NCBI GenBank assembly: GCA_947088865.1
Contig: CAMUHY010000013.1
Location: 28,607 to 92,606, forward strand
Length of the DNA stretch: 64,000 bases
Origin: an uncultured Eubacterium sp.
GTDB taxonomy: Bacteria > Bacillota > Clostridia > Lachnospirales > Lachnospiraceae
Direction of reading: 5' to 3'
A program made the position numbers and the translations under genes. Under the pieces are notes generated by a model that was not told the DNA's origin, searched no databases, and saw nothing but the letters and a program-made list of their open reading frames with translations. This document shows, piece by piece, positions 3,672 to 47,908 of this stretch (the stretch's first letter is position 1; every line of letters begins with the position of its first letter).

Positions 3672-3793
3672 GTTAAAGCGAATATTCGCAATCCGCTATG
3701 TTGCTTGCTCAAACCATCTAGCTGCTATTACAGCACAAGTCCCCACTTATGCCTCTATGGCATTGAAGTGGGAACTTCCTTGATAAAGTTAAA
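3672..3793 (+). repeat. Dispersed structured repeat, copy A
   Basis: This copy begins with GTTAAAGCGAATATTCGC, continues with a TTGCTTGCTC segment and ends in a hairpin AAGTCCCCACTT...AAGTGGGAACTT followed by CCTTGATAAAGTTAAA. The apical stem is ATGCC/GGCAT, where other copies have ATGC/GCAT. It lies in the otherwise empty AT-rich interval 3417-3944, upstream of the plus-strand methyltransferase. See copy G (25175-25337) for the full-length form. Confidence 0.75.
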
Positions 3794-3944
3794 TGCCATA
3801 TTTAAAAATAACAAATCAAATCAACATATATCATCATTATTTCCCCTAAAAATCCCTTTGACAATCCCCTTATCTTGCATTTACAATCATACTATCTTTA
3901 AAAACACTATTATAATTGTGAATTTTTCACAGAAATGAGGAATT

Positions 3945-4847
3945 ATGTTTATTGCACAAAATTGGATTGATTATGAAGTGATAGATACATCGAACGGAGA
4001 AAAACTAGAACGCTGGGGTGATTTTTTTCTAGTGCGTCCAGACCCGCAAGTAATATGGAATACCCCAAAAAAAGATAAGCGTTGGAATCATATTAACGGA
4101 CATTACCACAGAAGTGCCAAAGGCGGCGGAGAGTGGGAATTTTTTAATTTGCCAAAACAGTGGCATATTCAATATCAAAGTCCTTCCTTAGCACAACCTC
4201 TTACTTTTCATTTAAAACCTTTTAGTTTTAAACATACAGGACTGTTTCCTGAACAGGCGGCAAACTGGGATTGGTTTTGTAAACTTATATCAGAATCTAT
4301 AAAAAATGGAAAAAATGTCAAGGTTCTTAATCTCTTTGCATATACAGGCGGCGCTACACTGGCATGTGCGGCAGCAGGCGCTCATGTTACACATGTTGAT
4401 GCTTCAAAGGGTATGGTAAACTGGGCAAAAGAAAATGCTGCTTCCTCTAATCTTTCAGATAAACCTATCCGTTGGATTGTTGATGATTGCGTTAAATTTG
4501 TAGAGAGAGAAATTCGTCGCGGTAATCACTATGACGCTATTATTATGGACCCACCTTCCTATGGCAGAGGTCCTAAAGGTGAAATATGGAAAATTGAAGA
4601 TGCTATTTATGAGCTGATTCAAAAATGTGCAACACTTTTATGTGAAGAACCGCTCTTTTTTTTAATCAACTCCTATACAACTGGATTGCAGCCTGCTGTG
4701 TTAAGTTATATGCTAAATACTGCATTAAAATCATTTAAAGGACACGTCGATTCTCAGGAAGTGTGTCTGCCTGTTTCTTCTAATGGTCTGCTTCTTCCCT
4801 GCGGAGCTTCTGCAAGATTTTATACAATGCCTTCATCGAGCAAATAA
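3945..4847 (+). CDS. Class I SAM-dependent methyltransferase, RlmI-like
   Basis: A 300-residue methyltransferase of the RlmI/YccW type, whose characterised members methylate C5 of cytosine in 23S rRNA. The SAM-binding motif I is VLNLFAYTGGATLACAAAG near residues 126-145, followed by the acidic HVDAS that binds the ribose. The catalytic-region motif is DPPSYGRG near residue 203. The N-terminal 100 residues match the truncated bacterial form that lacks the PUA domain of E. coli RlmI. AATGAGGAA precedes the ATG. It is a solitary plus-strand gene flanked by repeat copies A and B while its neighbours run on the minus strand. The exact RNA target is not proven by sequence. Confidence 0.85.
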   Translation: MFIAQNWIDYEVIDTSNGEKLERWGDFFLVRPDPQVIWNTPKKDKRWNHINGHYHRSAKGGGEWEFFNLPKQWHIQYQSPSLAQPLTFHLKPFSFKHTGLFPEQAANWDWFCKLISESIKNGKNVKVLNLFAYTGGATLACAAAGAHVTHVDASKGMVNWAKENAASSNLSDKPIRWIVDDCVKFVEREIRRGNHYDAIIMDPPSYGRGPKGEIWKIEDAIYELIQKCATLLCEEPLFFLINSYTTGLQPAVLSYMLNTALKSFKGHVDSQEVCLPVSSNGLLLPCGASARFYTMPSSSK

Positions 4848-4902
4848 TACAAGAGGTTTTACTAACTGCTCAATTGCATTGTCTCTTCATAATATTAACA
4901 GA

Positions 4903-4950
4903 GAAGTCCCTGCTTTTTAAACAAGAGGCTTCTCTGATAATGTTAAAATT
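4903..4950 (+). repeat. Degenerate repeat right end, copy B
   Basis: A short hairpin GAGAAGTCC...GGCTTCTC followed by TGATAATGTTAAAAT, the same ending as the right end of the dispersed family (TGATGAGGTTAAAA). The left part is missing or unrecognisable. It lies just after the methyltransferase stop codon and could also act as a terminator between this gene and the convergent nucleotidyltransferase gene. Confidence 0.4.
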
Positions 4951-4973
4951 AAATACATACACTACTTTTCTTA

Positions 4974-6116
4974 TCAATCTTTTTTATGTTTCATTAAATC
5001 CGTTTCAATCTTTATTTTTTTTCTTTTATCTTTACGAATTAATGCTCTTATCCCTCTATGCAGCCAACAAAATGGCAAAGCGATTGGAAATTTATATAAA
5101 ATCACATAACTTCTTTTCATAGTCTTCATATTAGGAAAAATTCTTCTTATTGCATAGATAAATGTATTGTTTGATTTTTCTAATTTATTTTGCACAACAG
5201 CTTTATGACTGCGCTCTAATGTCCCATATGTGCCACTTGTAATAATATATGTTGTAATTTGTTCAATTTCGTCATCTATTATACCATCTTGAAACCATGC
5301 CTCTACTACCTTTTCAAATGTAATGGCAAGTTTTTTGATTTTCATTTTATCCAACTCATCATATATATATTTCCAGTTTAATATATCTTTGTACTGTTTT
5401 TTATATATATAAATATCCATAAACGAACGAATACCTGTACCGCCTAATTTATAATGCTTTACCATATGTGCAATATGATATATATAAAAATCTTCTTTTG
5501 TCATATGGTAAAAATGCTTGTTATTTTTATCTGGTATTAATCGTTCCCATTGTTTTTCATAATACTGCAAAATTTCTTTTTGCAAAATATCTAATGGCAC
5601 AAGATAGTGATGCATTTCAATATTCATAACAGGTTTCTTTTTATATACATCATGTCCTTCTTCATCAATATGGTCTAACACATACCCCATCTCTTTAAAA
5701 ACTTTTTTCACTAAATCTGCTTTATTGCTGTCCATAAGAATATCCAAATCCGCCATTGTTCTCATATCCTGACTTGGATATAATTCTTTTATAATACAGC
5801 CTTTTAACGGACATATATCAATTTGTGCTTTTGTAAGTTTTTCTATAATTACATCTCTTTCATAAAGTTGGTTTATTCCTTTTAAGATTGCTCGGTCTCT
5901 TGATTCTTTCCATTTTTTATACAGTTCTTCATTGGGCTTTTTTTCCAGCTTTTCTATACTGTAAAAGACAAGATTATCAATTGAATGATATTTTGCCAAT
6001 CTATATATATCTTCCCATGTGACATTTTCTGGCAATTCTTCTGGACTTGTATTATTAAGCGCACAACCTATTAGATGAATAAGATAACTACTATTTGTAT
6101 GAACAATCTGTTTCAT
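4974..6116 (-). CDS. Nucleotidyltransferase family protein (NTP_transf_5-like)
   Basis: A 380-residue protein of the uncharacterised nucleotidyltransferase family that travels with peptide-tailoring loci. The diagnostic stretch is CPLKGCIIKELYP (about residues 96-108) followed by MRTMADLDILMD, which gives the Asp-x-Asp metal-binding pair of the polymerase-beta fold. The remainder is helical and rich in Lys, Tyr and Ile. AAGGAAGG precedes the ATG, which overlaps the ABC transporter gene by 26 bases, so it is the last gene of the five-gene operon. In lasso-peptide clusters such proteins have been linked to nucleotidyl or phosphate modification of a precursor; whether that applies here is inference. 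Confidence 0.7.
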   Translation of the reverse strand: MKQIVHTNSSYLIHLIGCALNNTSPEELPENVTWEDIYRLAKYHSIDNLVFYSIEKLEKKPNEELYKKWKESRDRAILKGINQLYERDVIIEKLTKAQIDICPLKGCIIKELYPSQDMRTMADLDILMDSNKADLVKKVFKEMGYVLDHIDEEGHDVYKKKPVMNIEMHHYLVPLDILQKEILQYYEKQWERLIPDKNNKHFYHMTKEDFYIYHIAHMVKHYKLGGTGIRSFMDIYIYKKQYKDILNWKYIYDELDKMKIKKLAITFEKVVEAWFQDGIIDDEIEQITTYIITSGTYGTLERSHKAVVQNKLEKSNNTFIYAIRRIFPNMKTMKRSYVILYKFPIALPFCWLHRGIRALIRKDKRKKIKIETDLMKHKKD

Positions 6117-7767: not shown

Positions 7768-8194
7768 CAAAAATCCTCCCCAAGAAATGTATACCTCTTC
7801 GTATTATAAATGGACGCCATAAAAATTCATATATCTTATGAACGTTTTGCGGGACTTCTCTATCACCACGATATATCCTGCTTACAACAGCGATAATCAT
7901 ATCTTGTGTAATGCCTTCTTCCCTGTAAGTCTGATTATCCCCACATAACACATAATATTCTTTTTTAACTCCTACAATCCGATGCAAGACATACTGACCA
8001 CTTTTTCGCTGATAAAAAATAATTTGTCCTCTGCAAAGCGGAAATGTTGGTTTTACCAATACTACGGAATCCTTACCTTGCCTTAATATTGGCAACATAC
8101 TAACGCCCTTTGGATACATTCTAAATTCTCCGCCAGATTTTATCACTTCTTTTATCAAGTTGTCATACTCTTTTAGTTTAAATTCTTTATTCAA
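7745..8194 (-). CDS. S24/S26-family signal-peptidase-like protein
   Basis: A 149-residue peptidase-like protein. The nucleophile motif PKGVSMLP places Ser at residue 32. The usual bacterial general-base Lys is replaced by His in YVLHRIVG (residue 71), with Asp in CGDN (residue 86), so it belongs to the Ser-His-Asp type shared by SipW and archaeal or ER signal peptidases. There is no N-terminal membrane anchor, only a basic amphipathic C-terminus. The start is a TTG that overlaps the pqqD-like stop by eight bases (TTGAATAA), with GAGG nine bases ahead. Between a PqqD-like protein and an ABC exporter it may act as the leader peptidase of the cassette; this is inference. Confidence 0.75.
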   Translation of the reverse strand: MNKEFKLKEYDNLIKEVIKSGGEFRMYPKGVSMLPILRQGKDSVVLVKPTFPLCRGQIIFYQRKSGQYVLHRIVGVKKEYYVLCGDNQTYREEGITQDMIIAVVSRIYRGDREVPQNVHKIYEFLWRPFIIRRGIHFLGRIFGEKKTKR

Positions 8195-8450: not shown

Positions 8451-8589
8451 CTTTGCCTCATTTCTGCACATTGTACACTTATATTTTTTTACATCTATAA
8501 AATTTATATACGACTAATTTTTAATCTACCAACCATTTATCTGTACTATTTTCTACTTAACATCTATTTAACAATTACAAACGTTTTTA

Positions 8590-9300: not shown

Positions 9301-9349
9301 TATATTCCCTTTCTATTTTTATCTTTACAAACAATTTTCATAACTTTTA

Positions 9350-9416
9350 GCAAGTCCCCCCCCAATTTATTCCTTTGCAGCATTGAAGTAAGAACTTCTT
9401 TAATAAGGTCAAAAAC
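9350..9416 (+). repeat. Degenerate repeat right half, copy C
   Basis: The segment CAAGTCCCCCCCC...CCTTTGCAGCATTGAAGTAAGAACTTC followed by TTTAATAAGGTC matches the right half of the dispersed family. The stem is damaged (the C-run pairs poorly with AAGTAAGAACTT). The left half is not recognisable. It lies upstream of the HprK-like operon, between it and the IS607-type element. Confidence 0.55.
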
Positions 9417-9584: not shown

Positions 9585-9722
9585 TTATGTGTCATTCCTT
9601 ATTCAACGTGTCCGCTTTTGATAAAATCTACTAACGTTTGGTATGACACTCCAAAGGCGTAAATTCCCGACTAACGTATCGGTACACATTGGCAGCACTT
9701 GTTTTTGCTATACTGCCAATCC
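9585..9722 (-). ncRNA. Probable omega RNA (TnpB guide RNA scaffold)
   Basis: The minus strand downstream of and overlapping the tnpB 3' end contains GTGCTGCCAATGTGTACCG, CGTTAGTCGGGAATTTACGC and CTTTGGAG in order, a pattern I associate with guide scaffolds at IS607/IS605 right ends. A terminal stem GTGTCATACC/GGAATGACAC (9640-9649 with 9589-9598) closes the end, nine of ten pairs. The guide would be read from flanking DNA beyond the element end. Boundaries are approximate. Confidence 0.5.
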
Positions 9723-10864
9723 GTATCTCATTAGATTCACACTTGCTTGATAATCCCTGTCAATCGTATTGTGACATTGCGGACAGATATAGATACGTTC
9801 CGAAAGCTTTAAATCTTTCTTAATATATCCACAGCACGAACACAATTTACTGGACGGATAGTATCGGTCTGCTGTCACAAATTCAATATTGTTCCAACGA
9901 CATTTGTATTTCATCTGCCTGTAAAATTCATAAAAGCACTGTTCCCAAACATCTTTTGCAAGATGCCTGTTTTTCATCATACCCTTTACATTCAAGTCTT
10001 CCAAAACAATAAACTTTGGTTTTCGGCTTACGATTTCAGAAGTGGTCTGATGTAAGTAATTATGTCGAATATTTGTTAGTCTATGGGTGATTTTTAAAAC
10101 CTTTTTCTCACTTTTTACAATATTGCGTGTTTTACAGTAACATTCTCCTTTTTTGTTTTTTGAGTATTTCTTTGATACTCTGCGTTGTAATCGACGCTTT
10201 TTCTTTTTTAGTTTTCTGACTTTTGCGGTCTTATTGATATTTTTGTAAATGTTTTTATCAGAACAAACTGCCAATTCCTTGATGCCTATATCTATTCCAA
10301 TTCCTTGATTGGTTGGCTGCTCTGTATTTTCTTCCAATTCAATTCCCACACAAATCCACCAGTTCAAGCCGTCAAATGTAATTCTCGGATTTGAATAGGT
10401 TGCATTTACAGCTATTCTGTCTGGTTCTGCAAGTCTGATTGAATTGAATTTCTGTTTGTCTTTCTGCTTGTTGTCAGCTTTTCCAGTTTCACATGCGTTC
10501 CTGTAAACTGTATCTTACATGGGTCCGCATAAAAACTCGGTTTTGACTTCCGTCTGCTCTTGAATTTCGGACTACCTGCCATTCCTTTGAAAAAGTTCTG
10601 ATATGCCTTTACAGCATCTTTGATTGCCTGTTTCGCAATATTGTTGCTGTAATCATTCAGCCATTGATATGCTTTTTCTGTTTTCATAATGGTAAAAATT
10701 TTTCGCAAATCACCATCGGAAATGAATTTATTTCCTGATTCATAATGTTGCTTTTCATAGTCTAATGCCCAATTGTATGCAAATCTTGCAAGTCCTGCAC
10801 AGGCAAACAACTTTGTCCTCTGTTTATTATTCGGACAGAGCATTACTTTTATGCTTTTAATCAT
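9708..10864 (-). pseudogene. tnpB: Frameshifted TnpB RNA-guided nuclease
   Basis: Two overlapping-frame pieces make up one TnpB. The N-terminal piece starts at the ATG at 10862-10864 and ends at a premature TAG near 10412. The C-terminal piece continues in the next frame from about 10465 to the stop at 9708. Joining them after SRK gives continuous protein (KFNSIRLAEPDRIAVNA), so a single base was lost near 10459-10465, in an A-run. The RuvC residues remain in the second piece: Asp in GIDIGI, Glu in VLEDLNV and Asp in IDRDYQASVN, as does the zinc finger CSCC...CPQC. TnpB is normally an omega-RNA-guided endonuclease. No classical slippery heptamer is visible, so mutation is more likely than programmed frameshifting. 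Confidence 0.85.
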
Positions 10865-13706: not shown

Positions 13707-13720
13707 AATGGAGCAAAACA

Positions 13721-18088: not shown

Positions 18089-19255
18089 TTAACAACTAAA
18101 TAATTCTTTTAACTTGTCCTCTTGCAACTTTTCACCAATGACACAGATTCTCCCTGTAAAATCTGGTTTTCCTTCGCGGATTTCATATTCTTGCGGAACT
18201 AAATCAAAATACAGCCATGTTCCATCACTGGCTGGAACCATTCCTTTAGAACGAAGAATATTTCCATATTCATCGGTATTGGCAAGTTTATTTAATATTT
18301 CCTCCAACGCTGTCTTTTCATACTTGTTAGGCGTCTCAACACCCCAGCTTGTAAACACTTCATCTGCATGGTGGTGATGGTGTTCATGCTCGTGATGCTC
18401 ACAACCACACTCTCCATCATTCTCATGGTGGTGGTGATGTTCATGCTCATGATGTTCACAGCCACACTCTTCGTCATGCTCATGGTGATGATGTTCATGC
18501 TCATGATGTTCACAGCCGCACTCTTCGTCATGCTCATGGTGATGATGTTCATGCTCGTGATGTTCACAGCCGCACTCTCCGTCATGCTCATGATGGTGAT
18601 GTTCATGTTTGGCATGTTCTTTTTCAGCTTGCTCTGCTAACATCTCTAATTCAAGGTTGGTTACATTTTCCATAGCAGCCAAAATCTGTGCGCCCTCCAA
18701 ATCGTCCCAAGCTGTTGTGATAATATGGGCATTTTGATTTAAACTGCGAATCATCTCAATAGCTTTATTTAATTTTTCTTCATTAATATTTTGTGTTCTA
18801 CTTAAAATAATAGTGCCTGCATGTTCAATTTGATTGTTGAAAAATTCACCAAAGTTTTTCATATATACTTTAACTTTTGACGCATCGGCAACTGTTGAAG
18901 CACTGTTCAACTTAATTTCATTTTCAATATGAAGGTCTTTTACAGCTTTGATAACATCAGACAGTTTGCCAACGCCAGAAGGTTCAATAATAATTCGGTC
19001 TGGGTGGTATTTATCAACCACTTCTTTTAAGGATGTGCCAAAATCACCCACAAGAGAACAGCATATACAACCAGAGTTCATCTCTCTTATCTCAACGCCA
19101 GAATCTTTTAAAAATCCGCCGTCAATGCCAATCTCACCAAATTCATTTTCAATCAGCACAACTTGTTCATCTTTTAACACTTCTTTTAAAAGCTTACTGA
19201 TAAGTGTTGTCTTACCAGCTCCCAAAAATCCTGATATAATATCTACTTTTGTCAT
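18089..19255 (-). CDS. COG0523/CobW zinc-type GTPase with His-Cys-rich repeats
   Basis: A 388-residue metallochaperone-type GTPase. The P-loop is GFLGAGKTT at residues 9-17, the metal motif CICC follows in NSGCICCSLVGDF, and the IIEPSG switch lies near residue 94. Residues 214-295 hold about four and a half tandem copies of an 18-19-residue unit, HEHHHHEHDEECGCEHHE, and the CobW C-terminal domain follows. COG0523 proteins deliver Zn or Ni to client enzymes. The repeats give dozens of His and Cys ligands, so storage or transfer of zinc or nickel is likely. GAGG precedes the ATG. It is the first gene of a pair with the second CobW-like protein. Confidence 0.85.
   Translation of the reverse strand: MTKVDIISGFLGAGKTTLISKLLKEVLKDEQVVLIENEFGEIGIDGGFLKDSGVEIREMNSGCICCSLVGDFGTSLKEVVDKYHPDRIIIEPSGVGKLSDVIKAVKDLHIENEIKLNSASTVADASKVKVYMKNFGEFFNNQIEHAGTIILSRTQNINEEKLNKAIEMIRSLNQNAHIITTAWDDLEGAQILAAMENVTNLELEMLAEQAEKEHAKHEHHHHEHDGECGCEHHEHEHHHHEHDEECGCEHHEHEHHHHEHDEECGCEHHEHEHHHHHENDGECGCEHHEHEHHHHHADEVFTSWGVETPNKYEKTALEEILNKLANTDEYGNILRSKGMVPASDGTWLYFDLVPQEYEIREGKPDFTGRICVIGEKLQEDKLKELFSC
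18370..18614 (-). repeat. Tandem 54-57-bp coding repeats (His-Cys units)
   Basis: About four and a half direct copies of a 54-57-base unit inside the CobW gene encode the His-rich segment. The copies are nearly identical, so recombination could change their number. They have no unique spacers and are therefore not a CRISPR array. Confidence 0.9.
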
Positions 19256-19326: not shown

Positions 19327-19373
19327 TTTTAACCTCATCAAGGAAGTCCCTCACTTCAATGCTGTAAAAGTAT
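19327..19373 (-). repeat. Dispersed repeat right end in reverse orientation, copy D
   Basis: Read on the minus strand this is CAGCATTGAAGTGAGGGAC followed by TTCCTTGATGAGGTTAAAA, the conserved right end. Only this half is present. It is the sole clearly reverse-oriented copy. About 85 bases further on, 19459-19478 (CAAGCGGATATTTACAATTA) resembles the left end of the family in plus orientation, so the interval 19327-19480 may be a rearranged copy. Confidence 0.6.
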
Positions 19374-19475
19374 TAGATTTTAACTTTTATATATCATAAA
19401 CGATATGTGGGAACATTTTACATATAGTTAATTATTTTATTTCGCATAATATATACGTCAAGCGGATATTTACAA

Positions 19476-22277: not shown

Positions 22278-22806
22278 ACTTTTTCCCTCCTACTTGGCTT
22301 TCCAAAATTTCACAAGCTGCACGTATCAGTTGAATACATGGTCGTTTCTTATAATACTCCTGTGTTCGTTCGGATGGTATTGGACTTGTCATATTTTCCG
22401 AAATGCTGCCTAGTGCCGCCTGTTTTTCCTTATCATTTGACTCTTTTGTTTTCTTATCAAGACCTAACAGTTCTCGGCATACAATACTGCCTCCTGAAAT
22501 TTTTTTAAACTCCTGTGCCAAATGCTGAACCATCTCATAATTTTTTTCTTTTCCTTTTGGATTATAATCCGTTGTACAGCCAGACTCAAATCCTGCAACT
22601 AGTGCCATAGCGGACATACAGCCACAGACTTCTCTCATTCTTCCCATTCCTCCGCCAAACGATGCCGACATTTTAAGCGCTGTTTTTTCATCAATGCCAT
22701 ATCGATGTGCAAATGGCACAAATACTGATTGACTACAATTATATCCTTTTCTAAAATAATCTTCTGCCATATCAGCAATTTCACTTATTTTTTCGCTATC
22801 AGACAC
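22270..22806 (-). CDS. C_GCAxxG_C_C family protein
   Basis: A 178-residue protein of the C_GCAxxG_C_C family. Cysteines are arranged as YNCSQSV, then GGGMGRMREVCGCMSAMA and a late SIVCRELL, a pattern usually thought to bind a redox-active cofactor or metal. No function has been established for the family. The GTG at 22806 is preferred: GGAGGTG lies five bases ahead of it, whereas the TTG further upstream lacks a site. It overlaps citrate synthase by eight bases, so the two are co-expressed. There is no signal peptide. Confidence 0.8.
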   Translation of the reverse strand: MSDSEKISEIADMAEDYFRKGYNCSQSVFVPFAHRYGIDEKTALKMSASFGGGMGRMREVCGCMSAMALVAGFESGCTTDYNPKGKEKNYEMVQHLAQEFKKISGGSIVCRELLGLDKKTKESNDKEKQAALGSISENMTSPIPSERTQEYYKKRPCIQLIRAACEILESQVGGKKYE

Positions 22807-22861
22807 TTCAACACCTCCAAACACCAATTTCTAGTAATTATGCAATATTTACACGATTTTG

Positions 22862-22942
22862 TCAAACGGCCTTTATTATAGAAAATATCTCATCATCTAT
22901 ATTTCCATGCTTTAATCCTTTGCTGTTTAATGACTCTATCAT
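22862..22942 (-). other. Possible gene remnant (26 codons)
   Basis: The 340-base interval 22807-23160 is AT-rich and contains one short minus-strand open stretch starting MIESLNSKGLKHGN with protein-like composition. No ribosome binding site precedes it and the surrounding sequence is degenerate. I treat it as a possible fossil C-terminus and not as a gene. The rest of the interval shows nothing I can support. Confidence 0.2.
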
Positions 22943-23160
22943 ATCATTTTTTTACTGTAAATTCAAACAACACAATCAGACCCTTTTACAAAATTTATAA
23001 ATTACTTATTATGTTATTTTATATACTGTAATTGTAATTTATAATTAATTTATGCCACCTTTATACTGTCTACTATTGATATTAAATAAAAAATAATATA
23101 TAATAAAAATATACAATTAACAAACAAAACTATTTTTATTATAAGAAAATATTATTTTTA

Positions 23161-23318
23161 GTTGATAAAATATTCACAATCCGCTACGCTGCTTGCTTAA
23201 ACCACCTAGCTACTATCGTAGCTTTTTAGTGAGAGTTTATACTCCCACTAAGACAAAGAAGTTCCCCACTTATGCCTTTGCAGCATTGAAGTGAGAAACT
23301 TCCTTGATGAGATTAAAA
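23161..23318 (+). repeat. Dispersed structured repeat, copy E
   Basis: A long copy, nearly identical to copy G: AATCCGCTACGCTGCTTGCT, then CACCTAGCTACTATCGTAGC, the GAGTTTATACTC hairpin, and the CCCCACTTATGCC...AGCATTGAAGTGAG right stem followed by CTTCCTTGATGAGATTAAAA. The left palindrome has decayed (GATAAAATATTCACAATCCGCT). It ends 30 bases before the start of the Rpn-family gene, so that gene's leader or promoter must include the repeat. Confidence 0.85.
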
Positions 23319-23347
23319 TACACATCAATACAGAAAGAGGAATCCAT

Positions 23348-24319
23348 ATGTCCAAATTTTTAATGAAACCAAAAATTGATTTTGCATTTAAAGAAATCAT
23401 GACTGATGAAAAAGCTCGTGTTGGCTTTCTATCAGCTGTATTAAAACTAAATCCAAAAGATATTAAGAAAACTACAATTTTAAATACAAATCTGCGCAAA
23501 ATACATAAGAAAGATAAACAGGGAATACTAGATGTCCGAATTTTAATGAATGATGACACAGAAATTGACATTGAAATTCAGCTTGTTGAATTAAAGGTAT
23601 GGGCTGACCGCTCCCTTTTTTATATATCTAAAATGTATGTTGACCAAATTCAAGCAGGGCAAGATTATGCTAAATTTAAAAAATGTGTTAGCATTAGTAT
23701 TTTAAATTTTAATCTATTTCCTGATAATTTAAAAAATAAGCAGAATATTTCGGACAAAGATAAAATTCTTGATGACGAATTTTATTCTTGCTTCCATATT
23801 AGAGAAGATAACCATCATTTTCTATATACTGATAAAATGGAATTTCATGTAATAGAACTTCCCAAACTTCCAAAAGAATTAAAAGAAAACAGCACAGATA
23901 TTTTATTATGGGCTAAATTTATCAACGCCGAACGAGAGGAGGAATTTCAAATGTTAGCTTCTAAAAACACTTATATTGACAGCGCTTATGAACGCTTACA
24001 AATTATCAGTCAAGACAAACAAAAACAAATGGAATATGAGGCACGTCAAAAAGCTATTCTTGACCATAATCAGATGGTTCTTGAAGCAACTGAAAAAGGT
24101 ATGAAACAAGGCATTGAGCAAGGTATGAAACAAGGCATAAAACAAGGCATAAAACAAGGCATTGAACAAGGCATGAAACAAGGCGTTGAGCAAGGGTTTG
24201 AACAGGGCATTGAACATGTGGCTAAAAATCTTATTAATGAAGGTTATCCAATTGATGCCATTGCTCAATTAACAGGTATTTCTATTGATATAATTGAAAA
24301 AATGCAAAAAAACTCTTAA
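23348..24319 (+). CDS. Rpn-family PD-(D/E)XK nuclease / putative transposase
   Basis: A 323-residue protein of the Rpn (PDDEXK_2) family. It begins FLMKPKIDFAFKEIM, typical of the family; the nuclease residues are Asp in GILDVRILMND and Glu-x-Gln in IDIEIQLVE near residues 60-82. Characterised Rpn proteins are DNA endonucleases that promote RecA-independent recombination. The C-terminal region (about residues 252-292) is a chain of four-residue GIKQ/GMEQ-type repeats, followed by a helix that ends in a LTGISIDIIEKMQ pattern. AGAGGAA precedes the ATG at 23348. It is a lone plus-strand gene bracketed by repeat copies E and F. Confidence 0.85.
   Translation: MSKFLMKPKIDFAFKEIMTDEKARVGFLSAVLKLNPKDIKKTTILNTNLRKIHKKDKQGILDVRILMNDDTEIDIEIQLVELKVWADRSLFYISKMYVDQIQAGQDYAKFKKCVSISILNFNLFPDNLKNKQNISDKDKILDDEFYSCFHIREDNHHFLYTDKMEFHVIELPKLPKELKENSTDILLWAKFINAEREEEFQMLASKNTYIDSAYERLQIISQDKQKQMEYEARQKAILDHNQMVLEATEKGMKQGIEQGMKQGIKQGIKQGIEQGMKQGVEQGFEQGIEHVAKNLINEGYPIDAIAQLTGISIDIIEKMQKNS
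24098..24213 (+). repeat. 12-bp coding repeats in the Rpn gene
   Basis: About nine to ten tandem copies of a 12-base unit, GGTATGAAACAA / GGCATTGAACAA, encode G-(M/I/V)-(K/E)-Q. This chain is common in Rpn proteins and differs in copy number between paralogues. It is coding and lacks spacers. Confidence 0.85.
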
Positions 24320-24390
24320 ATTTATTTTAACATTTGCTATTAAAAATAAAAAATTTATTCATATAAATAACATTTTCAAAAAGCTGCAAA

Positions 24391-24519
24391 TTTAAGCGAA
24401 TATTCTCAATCCGCTTCGCTGCTTGCCTCAATCTCCTAGCTGCTATCACAACACAAGTCTCTCCCGCTTATATCTTTATAATATTAAAGCGGAGGGAGAC
24501 TTACTTGATAAGATTAAAT
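24391..24519 (+). repeat. Dispersed structured repeat, copy F
   Basis: Starts with TTTAAGCGAATATTCTCAAT, has the CTGCTTGCCTC segment and CTAGCTGCTATC, and ends in a stem AAGTCTCTCCCGCTT / AAGCGGAGGGAGACTT followed by ACTTGATAAGATTAAAT. Both stem arms differ from copies A and G in matched positions, so pairing is kept. It lies after the Rpn gene and before a convergent minus-strand gene. Confidence 0.75.
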
Positions 24520-24564
24520 ATCTATAAAAATAGAACTTCTTAATCTTGTTAAATTTTTTATATT

Positions 24565-25107
24565 TCATTTTTTTGTACCCTTTTCCCATAAAATAGCTTT
24601 ATATAACTGCTTTAAATCTTTATCATCACAACTTGTAAAACCTTTCTTTGACAACGCTTCCCACTCATATTCTCCACTAAAAAGATAGATATTATCTTTA
24701 TCCTCACTTAAAAATTTTATATCCTGCCAATGAATCATTGCTGCTTTGTCATCTGCCGCTTTTTTCACCTCAATATTTTCAGAATCAATTTCATAATAAA
24801 AAGTTTGCCCAATTTTAGATGAATATTTTTCTCGAAAAACAATCTGTTTATTTTTATCAAGATAATACATTCCAATAAAAAGACATCCAACACATATTAC
24901 TCCAAATAAAACAACAGCAATCCTATTAATGGATTCATTTGCCGCAAAATTACGTGCCATAATACTCACCATTACCATTCCTGATGTCAGTCCTGCAAAA
25001 TTAAACAATAACTTTTTTCTTTTATATATTTCATTGTTATAATTACTGGCTATTGCCGCTTTTTCTAATGTTTTATCTGTATAAGTGGTTGTATTTTTAA
25101 TAACCAT
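24565..25107 (-). CDS. YcxB-like membrane protein
   Basis: A 180-residue protein with a short cytosolic N-terminus, two closely spaced membrane segments (about residues 33-52 and 62-82) and a C-terminal hydrophilic domain of about 95 residues with alternating beta-type strands. This layout matches the YcxB-like family, which has a C-terminal PH-like domain and no established function. The ATG is preceded by GGAA. It is a solitary gene between repeat copies F and G. Family assignment rests on architecture and is moderate. Confidence 0.5.
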   Translation of the reverse strand: MVIKNTTTYTDKTLEKAAIASNYNNEIYKRKKLLFNFAGLTSGMVMVSIMARNFAANESINRIAVVLFGVICVGCLFIGMYYLDKNKQIVFREKYSSKIGQTFYYEIDSENIEVKKAADDKAAMIHWQDIKFLSEDKDNIYLFSGEYEWEALSKKGFTSCDDKDLKQLYKAILWEKGTKK

Positions 25108-25174
25108 TATTGACGTTCCTTTCCGAAAAATTTATACTTAACACAAAAAGGCTAAAATTTTTATTCTTATATAT

Positions 25175-25337
25175 GTTAAGCGGATATTCGCAATCCGCTA
25201 CGCTACTTGCTCAAACCCACTAGCTACTATCGTAGCTTTTTAGTGGGAGCTTATACTCCCATTGAAACAAGGAAGTCCCCACTCCCACTTATGCCTTTGC
25301 AGCATTGAAGTGGGGACTTCCTTGATGAGGTTAAAAA
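25175..25337 (+). repeat. Dispersed structured repeat, copy G (best full-length form)
   Basis: The most complete copy. Elements in order: a 7-bp stem AGCGGAT/ATCCGCT (25179-25199); a stem CCCACTA/TAGTGGG with inner GCTAC/GTAGC (25216-25247); GGGAG/CTCCC (25245-25260), which competes with the previous stem; and a perfect 15-bp stem AAGGAAGTCCCCACT/AGTGGGGACTTCCTT (25269-25283 with 25309-25323) with an apical ATGC/GCAT. The end is GATGAGGTTAAAA. The SDR gene starts 23 bases after it. Confidence 0.9.
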
Positions 25338-25359
25338 AATCAAAAAATGGAGGATTCTT

Positions 25360-26133
25360 ATGGCAACAGCATGTATCACAGGCGCCAGTTCTGGCATTGG
25401 TCGAGCATTTGCAATTCATTTAAGCAAAATGGGATATCATCTTATATTGATATCAAGAAATACTTATAAATTAAAAAAACTAGCAAAAAAATTAAATACC
25501 ACATGTAAAATCATTTATTGTGATTTATCCAATGAAAATTCATGTCGTAGCCTTGCTAATCAATTAAAAAAATACAATATTGATATCTTAATTAACAATG
25601 CTGGATTTGGAGATTTGGGGGAATTAAGCAAGACAAGCCTTTTAAAAGACCTTGATATGATTCATGTCAATATAAAAGCAACCCATATTCTTACAAAAGA
25701 GCTGCTTCCTCAATTTATCAAACGTGACAGCGGCTACATTATGAATGTTTCTTCCAGTGCAGGATTATTGCCTGGCGGACCGCATATGGCAACATATTAT
25801 GCTACAAAATCATATGTCACAAGTTTGACTTGTTCTGTCTATCAAGAATTAAAAGAAGCTAAAAGCCATGTGCATATCTGCGCATTATGTCCAGGTCCTG
25901 TCCGGACAAATTTTAACAATGTTGCCAATGTTCAATTTTCTATAAATGGAATATCTGCTTCGTATTGTGCAGCGTATGGACTTAAAAAAATGTTTCAAAA
26001 AAAACTTCTTATTATACCAACGTTTTATATGAAAGCTGCTGTATGGGTAATGCAAAAAACACCTCGCAAAATAGCACTTGCAATTACCTCACATCAACAG
26101 CACAAAAAATATCATAAATCAACAACTTTATAA
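25360..26133 (+). CDS. Short-chain dehydrogenase/reductase (SDR)
   Basis: A 257-residue cytosolic NAD(P)-dependent oxidoreductase. The nucleotide-binding motif is TGASSGIGRAFA at the N-terminus, followed by the SDR signature NNAGFG near residue 80. The catalytic residues are Ser in MNVSSSAG and Tyr-x-x-x-Lys in YYATKSY. The substrate cannot be told from sequence. The sub-branch with a conserved MATYYATKSYV and a late CPGPVRTNF matches the DltE/YqjQ-like classical SDRs of Firmicutes. GGAGG lies before the ATG. Solitary plus-strand gene, preceded directly by repeat copy G. Confidence 0.9.
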   Translation: MATACITGASSGIGRAFAIHLSKMGYHLILISRNTYKLKKLAKKLNTTCKIIYCDLSNENSCRSLANQLKKYNIDILINNAGFGDLGELSKTSLLKDLDMIHVNIKATHILTKELLPQFIKRDSGYIMNVSSSAGLLPGGPHMATYYATKSYVTSLTCSVYQELKEAKSHVHICALCPGPVRTNFNNVANVQFSINGISASYCAAYGLKKMFQKKLLIIPTFYMKAAVWVMQKTPRKIALAITSHQQHKKYHKSTTL

Positions 26134-26154
26134 TTTATTACAAGCACTGTGAAA

Positions 26155-27075
26155 TTACCCTTTTCGCAGTGCTTGTGCAATATCGCTTATCTTTCTAAGC
26201 CGATGATTTACGCCTGATTTCCCAACAGGTGGAGAAAGCTTTGCTCCAATATCTTTAAGATTCATATCTGGATTTTCAAGACGAATCACTGCCACATTAT
26301 ACAAAGGCTCTTTCAAAGAACTAAGTCCCACCGTATCTCTTATATATTCTATATCTTTAATCTGTTTTACTGCTGCTTCAACAGTCTTATTAATATTGGC
26401 AGTCTCACAGTTTACCTTTCGATTTACATCATTGCGCATACCTTTTAAAATCATTACATTATACAACTCCATCTGTGAGACAAACGCTCCCATAACATTA
26501 AGACAGTCTGTAATATGATTGCCTTCTTTGATATACGTAATAAAATTATTTTTTCTAGCAATGACTTTGGCGTCCAATTCAAAAAATGCAAGCATTTCTT
26601 TAAGCTGCATTGCATCCGCCTGATTGGTACACACAATTTCATAATGATAGGATTTATTGGGGTCACTTATAGACCCTGCTGCTAAAAAAGCCCCTCTTAT
26701 AAAGGCTCTCTTACAGCACTCCTTTTGTACAAGCAAGGAATTATTCAGCATTTTTCTTTCCGAATCATTCCACTTGATTGCCATTAATATTTTTTCAGTA
26801 ATACTTTTACTTTGTATTTTTATAGTGATAATATTATTTTTTTTGCCTTCATGCTGTAATGTAATATCCTTGTCTGCTACATTAAATGTACATTTTATTA
26901 ACTGTACAAAAACATCTGCCACAATATCATTTTCTGTTGTCGCACAAAGCCCCTCCCACTGATTGCAGGCATTTGCGCAAAATGCCATAATAGCGGCAAG
27001 TTCTGCTATCTGACAATGTTTGGCAGTATCAATTTTATGTTTCAATTCTTCTTTAACTTGTGATGAAAAAGACAT
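26155..27075 (-). CDS. whiA: DNA-binding protein WhiA
   Basis: A 306-residue WhiA, a DNA-binding protein with a LAGLIDADG-like N-terminal domain and a C-terminal helix-turn-helix. The C-terminal pattern is [27 protein letters not shown]-like: [20 protein letters not shown] then [13 protein letters not shown]. In Firmicutes WhiA affects chromosome segregation and cell division. An ATG at 27105 lies upstream in frame, but AAAGGG is positioned correctly for the ATG at 27075, one base after the rapZ stop. It is the last gene of the uvrC-hprK-glcK-murB-rapZ-whiA cluster. Confidence 0.93.
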   Translation of the reverse strand: [306 protein letters not shown]

Positions 27076-32887: not shown

Positions 32888-32955
32888 GTTAAGCGGATAT
32901 TCGCAATCCGCTATACTGCTTGCTCATAACCTATTAACGCCTCAGCCACATTCTG
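32888..32955 (+). repeat. Dispersed repeat left half, copy H
   Basis: GTTAAGCGGATATTCGCAAT followed by CCGCTATACTGCTTGCTC matches the first 40 bases of copy G, including the 7-bp palindrome. The right stem and the conserved end are absent. It lies between the uvrC start and the end of the transglutaminase gene. Confidence 0.7.
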
Positions 32956-42164: not shown

Positions 42165-42339
42165 TTTTTTCTCCTATTCTGTTATTATTTAATACTGCAA
42201 AATAACTCTATTCATCTATTCCACATATAATCTTTACTATTTCCAAATCACCTCTATCTTGCTATATCTCAATTATATAAGAATTTTCCTTTGTTTACAA
42301 TAAAATTCAGATAAGATTTTTATATTGAAAATTTACTAG

Positions 42340-42416
42340 CCAAGCCAATATTCGCAATTCATTTGGCTGCTCGCCTAGAACTTCATTGCTATTTTCTTGA
42401 TAAAATCAAATTTTAT
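42340..42416 (+). repeat. Decayed dispersed repeat, copy J
   Basis: CCAAGCCAATATTCGCAATT and GGCTGCTCGCC correspond to the left end, and TTTTCTTGATAAAATCAAA to the right end, but the central hairpin is lost. The surrounding 42165-42500 interval is AT-rich and shows nothing else I can support. Confidence 0.5.
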
Positions 42417-42676: not shown

Positions 42677-42702
42677 TATTGGCAAAAAAGGCGGACGAAA
42701 TT

Positions 42703-43539: not shown

Positions 43540-43558
43540 GTTTCTTATAAGTTTATCC

Positions 43559-43587
43559 ATCATTGCAAGTGGCGCCTATGCAATGAT
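43559..43587 (+). other. Leader hairpin between glcT and ptsG
   Basis: ATCATTGCA/TGCAATGAT forms a perfect 9-bp stem with an 11-base loop that holds GGCGCC. No T-run follows, so it is not a plain terminator. It may stabilise the mRNA end or serve in processing between glcT and ptsG. No second RAT was recognised in the 155-base gap. Confidence 0.4.
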
Positions 43588-43694
43588 AATTTGCGGTATT
43601 TGCCAATATGCTTAAATGAAAACCATTTATTTTAAACAAAACATTTGGCTTATTGCCTGCAACAATAAATTAATATGAATAAGGAGGACTACTT

Positions 43695-45851
43695 ATGAAA
43701 GATAAGATTTTTGGTGTATTGCAGCGTGTTGGTCGTTCTTTTATGCTTCCTATTGCGTTGCTGCCTGTGGCAGGACTTCTTCTTGGTATAGGCAGCTCAT
43801 TCACCAATCCAACGACAATTGAGACCTATAATCTCAGCGGCATTATTTATGAAGGTGGTATTCTCTACACCATTTTGGATATTATGAGCAAAACAGGAAG
43901 CGCTGTTTTCGACAATCTCGCCCTGCTCTTTGCTATGGGTGTTGCCATTGGAATGGCAAAAAAGGAAAAAGAAGTTGCTGCACTTTCAGGTGCAATTGCA
44001 TTTTTAGTTATGAATACAGCTATCAGCGTTTTAATTTCCGCCAAAGGCGGCGTAGAGGCGATGGCAGAAAACTCAACCACTTCTGTATTAGGTATCACAA
44101 CCCTGCAAATGGGTGTATTTGGAGGTATTATTGTCGGTCTAGGCGTTGCCGCCCTACATAATAAATTCTATAAAATTGAACTGCCTCAGGTACTCTCCTT
44201 TTTTGGCGGAACAAGGTTTGTGCCAATTGTAGCAACGGTTGTCTATCTTATTGTCGGCATTATCATGTTTTACTTGTGGCCAGTTGTACAGTATGGAATT
44301 TCTCAACTTGGCGTACTTGTATTAAATTCTGGTTATGCAGGAACATGGGTTTATGGAATATTGGAACGCGCTCTTATTCCTTTTGGACTTCACCATGTTT
44401 TCTATATGCCATTCTGGCAGACCGAACTTGGTGGTTCTATGATAATTGACGGAAGTGTTGTAACAGGCGCACAAAATATTTTCTTTGCAGAGCTTGCTTC
44501 AAAATCAACAGAGGTCTTCTCTGTATCTGCAACAAGATTTATGTCTGGCAAATTCCCATTTATGATTTTTGGTTTGCCTGCTGCTGCTTTTGCCATGTAT
44601 AGAACATCTCGTCCTGAAAAGAAAAAAGTGGTTGGCGGTCTGTTGCTTTCAGCAGCGCTGACTTCAATGCTTACAGGAATTACAGAGCCGCTTGAATTTA
44701 CATTTATCTTTGTTGCACCTCTTATGTATGGTGTACACTGTGTACTTGCAGGACTTTCTTATATGCTTATGCACATTTTAAATGTAGGCGTCGGTATGAC
44801 GTTCTCTGGCGGCGCTATTGACCTTACGCTGTTTGGTATTCTTCAGGGCAATGAAAAGACCCATTGGCTTTGGATTATTGTTGTAGGCTTAATTTACGCC
44901 GTTGTATATTATTTTGTTTTCTACTTTATGATTACAAAATTAAATTTAAAAACACCAGGTCGTGAACCAGATGACGTTGAACCAAAACTTTACAGACGAA
45001 GTGATGTAAATGAAGCAAAAGCAGCAAAAGCTTCTGGCACAAACACAGATACCATCAGCGCACTTATCTTAAAAGGTCTTGGCGGAAAAGATAATCTTTC
45101 CGATGTTGACTGTTGTGCGACACGTCTTAGAATAACCGTTATTGACGTTTCAAAAGTAAGCGATAGCCTGCTTAAACAAAGCGGCGCTTCAGGCGTTATA
45201 CACAAAGGAAATGGCGTGCAGGTAATATATGGACCAAGAGTTTCTGTTGTCAAGTCAAATCTTGAGGTCTTTATGGATTCTCCTTTGTCCGACAATCTTG
45301 ACAGCATTTTAGATATTCCATCCGAAGAACCGGCTAACCAAAAAGCGGAAGCAAAGGATAGTTCAAATAATCAACCTGAACCATCATCTTCTGGAAACGA
45401 TACCATTACACTGTTTGCTCATATGAATGGAACAGTTGTTCCTCTTGAAAACGTAGAAGATGATGTCTTTTCACAAAAAATACTTGGCGATGGAATCGCT
45501 GTCGAACCTCAGGAAGGAAAACTGTTTGCTCCATGTGACGGCAAAATTGATTCCGTATTTGACACAAAACATGCAATTAATATTGTTTCTAGCAATAACA
45601 CTGAAATATTGCTTCACATAGGAATTGATACTGTTAAATTAGAAGGCAAACATTTTGAGACGCATGTTTCTGACGGTCAAGATATTAAAAAAGGTGATTT
45701 GCTTATATCTTTTGATATGGAAGCCATCAAAGCAGAAGGCTTTAAATTGACAACACCATTAATTATATGCAACACAGACGATTATTCAAATATCACTCCT
45801 GCTGCACAAGGTGCTATTTTGGCAGGCGATGAAATAATAAAAATAAATTGA
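43695..45851 (+). CDS. ptsG: PTS glucose transporter EIICBA
   Basis: A 718-residue phosphotransferase permease with all three domains: IIC (residues 1-420, membrane segments, with MTGITEPLEFTFIF near residue 330), IIB with the phosphoacceptor Cys474 in DCCATRLRITV, and IIA with active-site His641 in LLHIGIDTV, connected by a linker that is Ser/Asn/Pro-rich. It imports and phosphorylates glucose; N-acetylglucosamine is an alternative because the family overlaps. AAGGAGG precedes the ATG. It lies downstream of glcT and upstream of ptsH and ptsI, so the operon encodes the whole phosphorelay. Confidence 0.92.
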   Translation: MKDKIFGVLQRVGRSFMLPIALLPVAGLLLGIGSSFTNPTTIETYNLSGIIYEGGILYTILDIMSKTGSAVFDNLALLFAMGVAIGMAKKEKEVAALSGAIAFLVMNTAISVLISAKGGVEAMAENSTTSVLGITTLQMGVFGGIIVGLGVAALHNKFYKIELPQVLSFFGGTRFVPIVATVVYLIVGIIMFYLWPVVQYGISQLGVLVLNSGYAGTWVYGILERALIPFGLHHVFYMPFWQTELGGSMIIDGSVVTGAQNIFFAELASKSTEVFSVSATRFMSGKFPFMIFGLPAAAFAMYRTSRPEKKKVVGGLLLSAALTSMLTGITEPLEFTFIFVAPLMYGVHCVLAGLSYMLMHILNVGVGMTFSGGAIDLTLFGILQGNEKTHWLWIIVVGLIYAVVYYFVFYFMITKLNLKTPGREPDDVEPKLYRRSDVNEAKAAKASGTNTDTISALILKGLGGKDNLSDVDCCATRLRITVIDVSKVSDSLLKQSGASGVIHKGNGVQVIYGPRVSVVKSNLEVFMDSPLSDNLDSILDIPSEEPANQKAEAKDSSNNQPEPSSSGNDTITLFAHMNGTVVPLENVEDDVFSQKILGDGIAVEPQEGKLFAPCDGKIDSVFDTKHAINIVSSNNTEILLHIGIDTVKLEGKHFETHVSDGQDIKKGDLLISFDMEAIKAEGFKLTTPLIICNTDDYSNITPAAQGAILAGDEIIKIN

Positions 45852-45870
45852 GAAGAACAGGAGGATTCAT

Positions 45871-46128
45871 ATGAAAACATTTAATTACACTATCAAGGAC
45901 GAAGTAGGTATTCATGCAAGACCAGCAGGCTTGCTTGCAAAAAAAGCAAAGGAATTTGAAAGTACCATTACCATCCAAAAGGGTGAAAAATCGGTTAATG
46001 CCACCAAATTGATGATGCTTATGGGACTTGGTGTAAAATGCGGTGAAACTGTAACCATTACTGTTGAAGGTGCTGATGAAGAAAAAGCCGCTGTTGAAAT
46101 GGAAGCATTTTTTAACGAAAATCTCTAA
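45871..46128 (+). CDS. ptsH: Phosphocarrier protein HPr without Ser46
   Basis: An 85-residue HPr. His15 in GIHARPAG accepts the phosphate from enzyme I and passes it to EIIA. At the position of the regulatory Ser46 (B. subtilis numbering, same alignment without gaps) the protein has Lys46, preceded by Thr45: VNATKLMMLMGLG. The segment is otherwise conserved (MGLGVKCGE). AGGAGG precedes the ATG. The gene sits 19 bases after ptsG and 15 before ptsI. HprK could not phosphorylate this HPr at the normal site; see findings. Confidence 0.93.
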   Translation: MKTFNYTIKDEVGIHARPAGLLAKKAKEFESTITIQKGEKSVNATKLMMLMGLGVKCGETVTITVEGADEEKAAVEMEAFFNENL

Positions 46129-46143
46129 TAGGAGGTGTATGCT

Positions 46144-47784
46144 ATGATTCAGTTCATAGGTAAAGGCGTGTATGGCGCTATTGCTATGGGGAATGTTTCT
46201 ATCTTTAAAAAACAAGACACCGTTGTAAAACGTGTTCATGCAGAAGATACAGAAGCAGAAAAAAAACGTGTTATCGCTGCTAGAGAAGCCTCAGCACAGC
46301 AGCTTAAAGAAATTTATGACAAGGCGTTAAAAGAAGTTGGTGAAACACACGCTCAAATTTTTGATATACATATTATGATGCTTGACGATGATGATTATAA
46401 CGAATCCATTGAAAACATCATTGACACTCAAAGCGTTAATGCAGAGTATGCTGTTGCTGTTACTGCCGATAATTTTGCCCAAATGTTTTCATCTATGGAC
46501 GATGCCTATATGCAGGCTCGTGCCGCTGATGTAAAAGACATCTCTAATCGAATTATTGCAAACCTTACAGGGGCAATTTCACCAGAAACGCTTTCTAATG
46601 ATAAAATGATTATATGTGCAGATGACCTTGCACCTAGTGAAACAGTCGCTCTTGACAAAGAAAAAGTCCTTGCATTTGTAACTGCACATGGTTCATCTAA
46701 TTCGCATACGGCTATTCTTGCAAGAAATATGAATATCCCTGCCGTTATAGGTGTGGGTGATGATTTTCTTGCAAAAATAAAAAATGGTGATGAAGCTATT
46801 GTTGATGGATTTACAGGTGAAATCTTTATCAACCCTGATGACGCAACAAAAGAAAAAATGTTGCAAAAACAAAAAGAAGATGAAGATAAAAAAAGATTGT
46901 TACAAGAACTTAAAGGCAAAGAAAATGTTACTCTTGATGGAACAAAAATCAATATTTTTGCCAATATTGGAAGCGTTGATAATATTGGAGCCGTTCTTGT
47001 AAATGACGCAGGTGGAATTGGTCTTTTTAGAAGTGAGTTTCTCTATCTTGAAAATGCAGATTATCCTACGGAAGAACAACAATTCAGTGCATATAAAAAA
47101 GTGCTTGAAAGTATGGCAAACAAAAAAGTCATTATCCGAACACTTGACATTGGTGCAGATAAACAGGTGGACTATTTCAAATTGAAAAAAGAAGAAAATC
47201 CTGCACTTGGATATAGGGCAATTCGTATCTGCCTTAAACGCCCTGAAATTTTTAAAACACAGTTAAGGGCATTGTACAGAGCTTCTGTATTTGGCAATTT
47301 AGGAATTATGTTCCCTATGATTACAAGTGTTTCAGAACTTGAAAAAATCCTAGAAATCTGCAATATTGTAAAATTGGAACTTCAAGCTCAAAAAATAGAA
47401 TATTCTGATAATATTGAGTTGGGCATTATGATTGAAACGCCAGCCGCTGCTATCATAAGCGACCGACTTGCACCAATGGTCGATTTTTTCAGTGTTGGAA
47501 CAAACGACCTTACACAATATACGCTTGCCTGTGACCGACAAAACTCCGATATTGAAGAATTTGTCGATACACACCATGAAGCTATTTTGCGTTTAATTGA
47601 AATGTCTGCTGTCAACGCACATAAGCACGGTGCATGGATTGGCATATGCGGAGAACTTGCCGCTGACACAACACTTACAGAAAACTTTTTGCGAATGGGA
47701 ATTGATGAACTTTCTGTATCGCCAACATTTGTGCTTAAAGTACGGGATGCTGTGCGAAAGACTGATTTGACAAAGACAAAATAA
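46144..47784 (+). CDS. ptsI: PTS enzyme I (PEP-protein phosphotransferase)
   Basis: A 546-residue enzyme I, which transfers phosphate from PEP to His15 of HPr. The active-site His is residue 188 in TAHGSSNSHTAILARN. The C-terminal PEP-binding half has GIGLFRSEFLY, TLDIGADKQ and SVGTNDLTQYTLACDR. The GTG-initiated frame upstream at 46135 is not preferred: AGGAGG lies eight bases before the ATG at 46144. It is the last gene of the PTS operon, with copy I of the repeat right after the stop. Confidence 0.93.
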   Translation: MIQFIGKGVYGAIAMGNVSIFKKQDTVVKRVHAEDTEAEKKRVIAAREASAQQLKEIYDKALKEVGETHAQIFDIHIMMLDDDDYNESIENIIDTQSVNAEYAVAVTADNFAQMFSSMDDAYMQARAADVKDISNRIIANLTGAISPETLSNDKMIICADDLAPSETVALDKEKVLAFVTAHGSSNSHTAILARNMNIPAVIGVGDDFLAKIKNGDEAIVDGFTGEIFINPDDATKEKMLQKQKEDEDKKRLLQELKGKENVTLDGTKINIFANIGSVDNIGAVLVNDAGGIGLFRSEFLYLENADYPTEEQQFSAYKKVLESMANKKVIIRTLDIGADKQVDYFKLKKEENPALGYRAIRICLKRPEIFKTQLRALYRASVFGNLGIMFPMITSVSELEKILEICNIVKLELQAQKIEYSDNIELGIMIETPAAAIISDRLAPMVDFFSVGTNDLTQYTLACDRQNSDIEEFVDTHHEAILRLIEMSAVNAHKHGAWIGICGELAADTTLTENFLRMGIDELSVSPTFVLKVRDAVRKTDLTKTK

Positions 47785-47790
47785 ATGTCA

Positions 47791-47908
47791 AAGAATATTC
47801 ATTTACTTTGCTACTTTCTCATAACCTTATAGCTGTCATTGCAGCACAAGTCCCCCGTTTATATCTCTATGATATTGAAACAGGGGACTTATTTAATGAT
47901 GTTAAAAT
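47791..47908 (+). repeat. Dispersed structured repeat, copy I
   Basis: AAGAATATTCATTTACTTTG is a decayed left end. The right stem AAGTCCCCCGTTT / AAACAGGGGACTT carries different bases from copies A and G but still pairs, then ATTTAATGATGTTAAAAT ends it. The apical stem is ATATC/GATAT. It lies right after ptsI and may double as its terminator, and it precedes the LytTR regulator gene. Confidence 0.7.

Follow-up and report, generated by a model that had tools for sequence, protein, structure and literature searches.

PATEs and other non-autonomous derivatives of IS200/IS605 insertion sequences are short, palindromic and free of a transposase gene, and they occur in many copies, traits shared, in different hosts, by the repeat described here. 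According to passages in two accounts of the autonomous elements IS608 and ISDra2, a guide tetranucleotide lies just 5′ of the foot of a hairpin, the target flanks the left end, and both elements insert into the lagging-strand template without duplication (PMC6006769, PMC8612924). We analyzed a family of hairpin-rich repeats of ∼115–165 bases found in a 64,000-nucleotide stretch (hereafter the window; G000:C13:28607-92606, from contig CAMUHY010000013.1 of assembly GCA_947088865.1) of the 3.29-Mb genome of an uncultured Eubacterium sp. (Lachnospiraceae). The family is real and not a product of chance, and its members are probably non-autonomous, single-strand mobile elements of the IS200/IS605 type, with the bottom strand, opposite to the one on which the preliminary description named the copies, as the active strand. 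Lack of duplication, a one-sided 4-base target, a guide at the hairpin foot and replication-linked orientation together form the IS200/IS605 signature; the assignment is nevertheless incomplete, as these repeats could not be linked to any transposase.

Insertion Sites, Guide, and Target

Forty-two type I copies with both flanks available were compared with DNA of their own genomes and of relatives. Six had an empty counterpart, all of them copies in Lachnospira pectinoschiza M83 (G008; the other same-genus genomes, G001 and G003, are L. multipara). Five of the empty sites came from L. multipara ATCC 19207 and one was a paralogous site in G008, and the DNA compared contained no empty counterpart of the remaining 36 copies. 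None of the six sites had a target-site duplication. Five right flanks began with TTCA(A/T) and the sixth with TTTA, so that on the bottom strand insertion took place 3′ of TGAA (5/6) or TAAA (1/6); two of the six showed a length difference of 1 or 5 bases beside the junction. The comparison with empty sites proposed in the preliminary description of this DNA thus gave a definite result: type I elements, GTAAAG...CACTGCG on the top strand, are inserted immediately 5′ of TTCA (TTTA once) and without duplication.

Tandem copies agreed with these borders. In a type I tandem in G008 (L085), CACTGCG was joined directly to GTAAAG, as expected from a second entry 5′ of the same TTCA. In a type II tandem (L308), GATTCGG was joined to GTCAAG, with TTAA following; type II elements therefore appear to run from GT(C/T)AA to GG before TTAA, a border placed by this one tandem pair and by the guide/target match. 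It follows from the empty sites and tandems that the element ends just before its target and that host bases complete the 3′ arm of its outer stem.

On the bottom strand, the host TGAA is the exact complement of a TTCA at the start of the element's conserved end module. When the 3′ arm was located without use of this guide, the 70 copies with guide TGAA (top strand) were followed by TTCA in 57 cases and by another sequence in five, with no arm in eight. The 37 copies with guide TAAC were followed by TTAA in 14 cases and by another sequence in two, with no arm in 21. Crosswise pairs did not occur (TTAA after 0/70 TGAA copies, TTCA after 0/37 TAAC copies), and one further copy, L122, combined guide TAGA with TCTA. 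In the copies compared, the target is the complement of the guide, and a change in one is accompanied by the matching change in the other.

Fold, Core, and Outer Stem

The top strand reads, in order, GT(A/C/T)A, a hairpin AGCGGA/TCCGCT, ACTTSCTCA, and an outer stem that opens with the guide (TGAAC.. or TAAC..), closes at the right border and encloses up to three hairpins, some or all of which are missing from short forms. The 3′ arm of the outer stem, absent from the preliminary description, extends into the target sequence. On the bottom strand, the module is guide-TGAG-NAA-GTAG-CNNNG-CGGA-TTN′-CGAA-..., followed by the hairpin arm TCCGCT and by the border (..TTTAC, ..TGAC or ..TAAC), with guide TTCA in type I and TTA in type II.

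Thirteen copies from the window's genome (G000), aligned by sequence, showed changes on both sides in 9 of 28 pairs, and 92.2% of cells paired; neither value was reached in any of 500 shuffles, and pairing fell to 28.7–42.5% when the pairing partner was slid. Four of five covariation measures beat all 500 shuffles, and the fifth, the number of further pair types, was not above them (314 of 500). The matched changes in the right-stem arms claimed earlier for this repeat were thus borne out. Across 147 copies from 44 sources, the base pair N:N′ of the core stem was C:G in 85 and G:C in 53 and was unpaired in nine. The pair adjoining the guide was CA/TG in 69 of these copies and TA/TA in 43; 22 of the 35 departing copies belonged to a G000 subtype in which one base was apparently lost.

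In the outer stem, 31 of 74 distinct arms paired at 9–10 of 10 positions within their own element, vs. 8.9% for foreign arms (G:T counted). Outer-stem sequence varies between lineages while complementarity is kept, and the predicted fold brings the 5′ end next to the guide. In many copies of the window type the outer stem has decayed, so the evidence for it comes mainly from other genomes. Minimal forms of ∼50 bases (L171, L223, and L016) were also seen; a deletion between two similar ACTTGCT sequences, one in each half, appears to have produced them.

Orientation and Genomic Context

Replication direction was approximated by GC skew, counted with the element itself left out; the strand richer in G is the one that matches the lagging-strand template in sequence. 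The bottom strand was the G-rich strand for 101 of 133 copies (p = 1.6e-9), at loci that were the best-scoring or first-listed places and not a random sample, and where neighboring copies share skew. By group, this held for 49 of 56 copies in other genera, 32 of 46 in the Lachnospira genomes (G008, G003, and G001) and 20 of 31 in G000, as compared with 13 of 26 in a control family, Clostridiales-1. Orientation is thus tied to the lagging-strand template. By a simple open reading frame (ORF) rule, 95 of 105 copies were intergenic.

Copies in the Window and Distribution in Lachnospiraceae

A covariance model was built from 13 aligned copies, five from the window and eight from elsewhere in the genome. 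With it, the window contained five complete copies (A, E, F, G, and I), a half copy (H), and weaker fragments (Table 1). The six clear copies first claimed therefore become five (106.8–131.8 bits, matches by construction), with H reduced to its left module (38.9 bits). Fragments B, C, D, and J of the preliminary description came without coordinates, which makes a one-to-one pairing with the weaker partial matches impossible.

Table 1. Repeat copies and fragments in the window. The borders of copy A were set by analogy with the type I empty sites and the type II tandem pair; bit scores of A, E, F, G, and I are matches by construction, all five being in the building set of the model.
Feature	Position	Strand	Description	Target	Score (bits)
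Copy A	3672..3788	+	Short form, without middle hairpin	TTAA 3789-3792	131.8
Partial copy, right half	9316..9413	+	Stem and TTAATAAGGTCAAA end		34.1
Partial copy	19328..19430	-			34.2
Copy E	23161..23312	+	Full form with middle hairpin; decayed left hairpin arm	TTAA 23313-23316	116.9
Copy F	24391..24513	+	Short form; matched changes in right stem	TTAA 24514-24517	121.5
Copy G	25175..25330	+	Full form	TTAA 25331-25334	127.5
Conserved end module of copy G, active-strand reading	25175..25218	-	Guide region, core loops, REP-like GTAG hairpin to the element's 3′ border		
Copy H	32888..32930	+	Conserved end module alone (left hairpin and CTGCTTGCTCATAAC), without right half		38.9
Decayed left module	42337..42410	+			23.6
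Copy I	47787..47901	+	Short, diverged; matched changes in right stem	TTAA 47902-47905	106.8

The search of the genome and its relatives that had been suggested as a check likewise found the family well beyond the window. In G000 the model matched at least 141 places (E ≤ 1e-3), a lower bound because only 150 of 1647 candidates were scored, and six of 61 genomes searched, G000 among them, had matches. The end module CGGAYATTCGSAATCCGCTNYGCTACTTSCTCA (≤2 mismatches) was present in 38 of 397 Lachnospiraceae genomes and 36 of 334 genera, a patchy distribution with 1 to 83 occurrences per positive genome; a reversed control pattern had no match in the genomes listed for the module. Hosts among the matches listed included Lachnospira, Acetitomaculum, Blautia, Lacrimispora, Anaerocolumna, Eubacterium ramulus, Faecalicatena, Catenibacillus, and others. 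A plasmid collection gave no match to the repeat. In a phage collection, it lay on 10 fecal scaffolds without annotation, taken as host DNA, and in IMG/VR on one contig.

Search for a Transposase

The genome of the window had four matches to PF01797 (Y1 transposase), two of them with a stop, and all flanked by ends other than those of the repeat. Among the copies and the Y1 and TnpB loci examined, none was a full-length element in which the same ends enclose tnpA or tnpB, the kind of parent looked for since the first description. Such loci from this genome and its relatives lacked the module as ends, some having an ordinary copy nearby, and a 2.2-kb candidate in G071 (L173) enclosed only host genes. 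Within ∼1.5 kb of the copies there was no recurrent transposase ORF, nor was a RAYT-like gene found nearby; recurrent ORF clusters looked, judged by size and place, like ORFs of the repeat itself or ordinary genes.

L. multipara ATCC 19207 and Acetitomaculum ruminis have an IS605-type TnpA/TnpB element with the repeat core at its left end, and L. multipara LB2003 carries the core in an apparent relic that lacks the gene. A strict core match was present in six of 20 fetched loci of this TnpA clade, and the core pattern, drawn after both core versions had been seen, had no match in 11.4 Mb of base-shuffled sequence. Defined by four queries (L064, L071, L183, and L185; E ≤ 1e-30) over the 397 genomes, the clade occurred in 36 genomes, seven of which carry the module (one-sided p = 0.04). 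Because the queries were picked from element-rich genomes, the only fair test is one without the four query genomes, which is taken up below. In A. ruminis, an IS200-like element was also seen joined to the left half of a copy whose right half is missing (L193; G247:C26).

Between copies E and F lies a PD-(D/E)XK transposase-like gene (PF12784; window 23348-24319, + strand) with a 12-base tandem repeat. A 77% relative lies near another copy of the repeat (L038). This Rpn-like gene was rejected as a partner, as only one relative was near another copy among the loci examined. Elsewhere in the window (9595-10864, − strand), a TnpB gene split into two pieces (9708-10367 and 10412-10864) is followed immediately downstream by a RAGATH-18 RNA (Rfam, 74.7 bits), which may be the right-end guide RNA of this TnpB. 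Imperfect direct repeats rich in CATGATG/GGTGATG (18372-18619, + strand) lie inside a 388-aa ORF (18089-19255, − strand).

A Core in Common With Clostridiales-1 (RF01699)

In four of 16 loci scanned, five elements matched the Rfam family Clostridiales-1 (RF01699), always on the bottom strand and below cut-off (21.3–26.5 bits vs. a gathering score of 48; individual E 0.03–1.4, each weak). Common to both is the core TGAG-NAA-GWAG-hairpin-CGGA-TTN′-CGAAT with the same compensating base, the N:N′ pair of Clostridiales-1 being C:G, G:C, A:T, or T:A. The genome of the window had no RF01699 match at E ≤ 1e-3.

RF01699 occurred in 82 of 150 genomes, over cut-off in 63 and often with at least 17 matches per genome (17 candidates scored), which makes it a dispersed repeat. 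Its terminal inverted repeats read GATACCAGGGTCAAAAGG.., and a copy in L236 has the inverted ends GATACCAGGGTCAAAAGGT and ACCTTTTGACCCCTACATC. When 13 loci were inspected by eye, direct repeats of 7 bp were seen on either side of the element in five (L194, L235, L236, L240, and L248), those of L236 surrounding a two-copy array, and repeats of 8 bp in L242; the other seven were unclear or had none. In L194, Clostridiales-1 interrupts a Y1 gene. The family showed no orientation bias with respect to genes or skew. Part of the source paper gives Clostridiales-1 only as a candidate RNA (PMC2864571).

As Clostridiales-1, with its inverted ends and duplications, shares the core, the same core is present in two kinds of element. 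We tentatively suggest, as a possibility with the odds somewhat against it, that one folded core is a portable module in at least three kinds of Lachnospiraceae mobile DNA, namely guide-carrying single-strand elements, Clostridiales-1 inverted-repeat elements and the left end of an IS605-type element. If this were true and the core were a hairpin that transposases recognize, Clostridiales-1 may be a hybrid on which two unrelated enzymes of this kind can act; if the core were an RNA, both repeat families would be its vehicles. Either way, RF01699 would be a mobile repeat and no conventional small RNA gene, and the guide-carrying elements would form a natural series of re-targeted single-strand transposons. 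The putative link to Clostridiales-1 is the more surprising part of these findings.

Proposed Mechanism and Alternative Explanations

We propose that a Y1 HUH transposase acting in trans would recognize the folded module on the lagging-strand template, that the guide would select the target, and that the element would leave as a single-stranded circle and re-insert 3′ of a matching tetranucleotide. A single module would suffice for the two ends, with the outer stem placing the distant end and the target next to the guide. An IS605-type TnpA that has this core at the left end of its own element may be the enzyme, and several hosts may have lost it or be supplied with it only transiently. The earlier assignment of the repeat to non-autonomous IS200/IS605-type derivatives thus gains the empty sites, the fixed target, the complementary guide and the orientation; a full-length element, or a Y1 gene found consistently in element-rich genomes, does not accompany them.

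Several results weigh against this assignment. Some concern the enzyme: no transposase lies between the ends of any copy among the loci examined; PF01797 had no match in six of 19 element-bearing genomes, including two with many copies (G008, 41; G411, 50; also G408, G155, G438, and G001); the genome of the window has no match to the TnpA clade; and this clade was rejected as a partner by association, since without the four query genomes the counts were 3/34 vs. 29/359 (p = 0.54). Others concern structure. IS608 has a guide-bearing hairpin at each end, whereas the repeat has a single conserved end module, its other end being folded in by the outer stem. A 9-base criterion located no 3′ arm within 3 kb for 50 of 148 occurrences of the module and only a distant match for 14 more, including many G000 copies, in which the outer stem has decayed. 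The orientation bias in G000 alone was not significant (20/31, p = 0.15). No empty site was found for the 79 type II copies or for a window copy, the part of the window compared being 22700-26300, where relatives (64–77% identical) covered only the gene region from ∼25330, with a 48-base module match in G015 and no intergenic alignment. Finally, the same core inside Clostridiales-1, with its inverted repeats and short duplications, is unexpected if the core served only a Y1 enzyme.

The absence of a flanking transposase, together with high copy number and intergenic location (95/105), would suit a REP/RAYT-type system, in which a domesticated TnpA(REP) would have spread the module as a repetitive extragenic palindromic (REP)-like sequence, the outer stem being of secondary importance. 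The GTAG at the hairpin foot of the bottom-strand module resembles that of canonical REPs, given in a passage of PMC6006769 as GT[AG]G, and minimal module-only forms exist (L016, L171, and L223). We nevertheless consider this explanation unlikely: full copies of ∼115–165 nt have a precise second border and clean empty sites, whereas the same passage gives REPs as 21–65 nt, there is no recurrent Y1 ORF near copies, G008 and G411 lack any PF01797 match, and no association with a RAYT gene was found. About equally improbable, in our estimation, is a mobile structured RNA, in which selection would maintain the fold for a bottom-strand transcript that functions as RNA (a noncoding RNA or RNA-mediated mobility), with Clostridiales-1 as its sister. 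Such an RNA would account for the core with compensating changes common to RF01699, for its presence in two vehicles with different insertion marks, and for the bottom strand being the coding strand in 87 of 133 cases. Clean 4-base targets and a G-skew bias, however, need no RNA, the RF01699 matches are below the gathering score and limited to four of 16 loci, and Clostridiales-1 lacks orientation bias to genes or skew. The GC-rich stems near gene ends might also suggest terminators, or an ordinary DDE-transposase miniature inverted-repeat transposable element, which is what Clostridiales-1, with the same core, looks like. Very little speaks for either: conservation is strongest outside the terminator-like stem, and a DDE-type element is contradicted by the lack of terminal inverted repeats and of target duplication in all six empty sites.

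With the repeat read as a single-strand IS200/IS605-type element, guide and target would have been swapped in nature on at least one occasion, as lineages of TTCA type and of TTAA type (and one TCTA candidate) differ in them, which provides a data set for guide rules; in engineered IS608, target choice is reportedly set by the 4-base guide, a role also known from structures. In some gut Lachnospiraceae genomes, 50 to >100 sites are occupied by these elements, which can be mistaken for terminators or small RNAs. If the link to Clostridiales-1 holds, this orphan family of Rfam is explained as a mobile repeat, and the question arises of what recognizes its folded core. In the open-licence literature, we found no Lachnospiraceae paper on repetitive extragenic palindromic sequences and a transposase, and no title or opening of an abstract naming these repeats; PMC3733652 contains none of six Clostridia-related names, and open-licence papers mentioning Clostridiales-1, the source paper apart, are unrelated by title.

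Comparison With Known Systems

Among described families, RF01699 shares with the repeat the core loops TGAG/CGAA and GWAG/CGGA and the same compensating base. Clostridiales-1 differs in having terminal inverted repeats, 7- to 8-bp duplications where readable and no strand bias, and copies of the repeat score below its gathering threshold. As in REP/RAYT systems, the repeat has a GTAG next to a hairpin and lies in many intergenic copies, but it is longer, with two defined borders, and no RAYT-like gene was found nearby. The likeness to PATEs is one of general description, and the repeat differs from them in its empty sites and in a guide and target that change together. The resemblance to IS608 and ISDra2, as far as these are set out in the passages cited, comprises insertion without duplication 3′ of a short fixed target, a guide at the 5′ foot of a hairpin and lagging-strand orientation. 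The repeat differs from both in that the copies examined hold neither tnpA nor tnpB, that its outer stem is predicted to place both the target and the far end beside the guide, and that its guide and target vary between lineages in nature.

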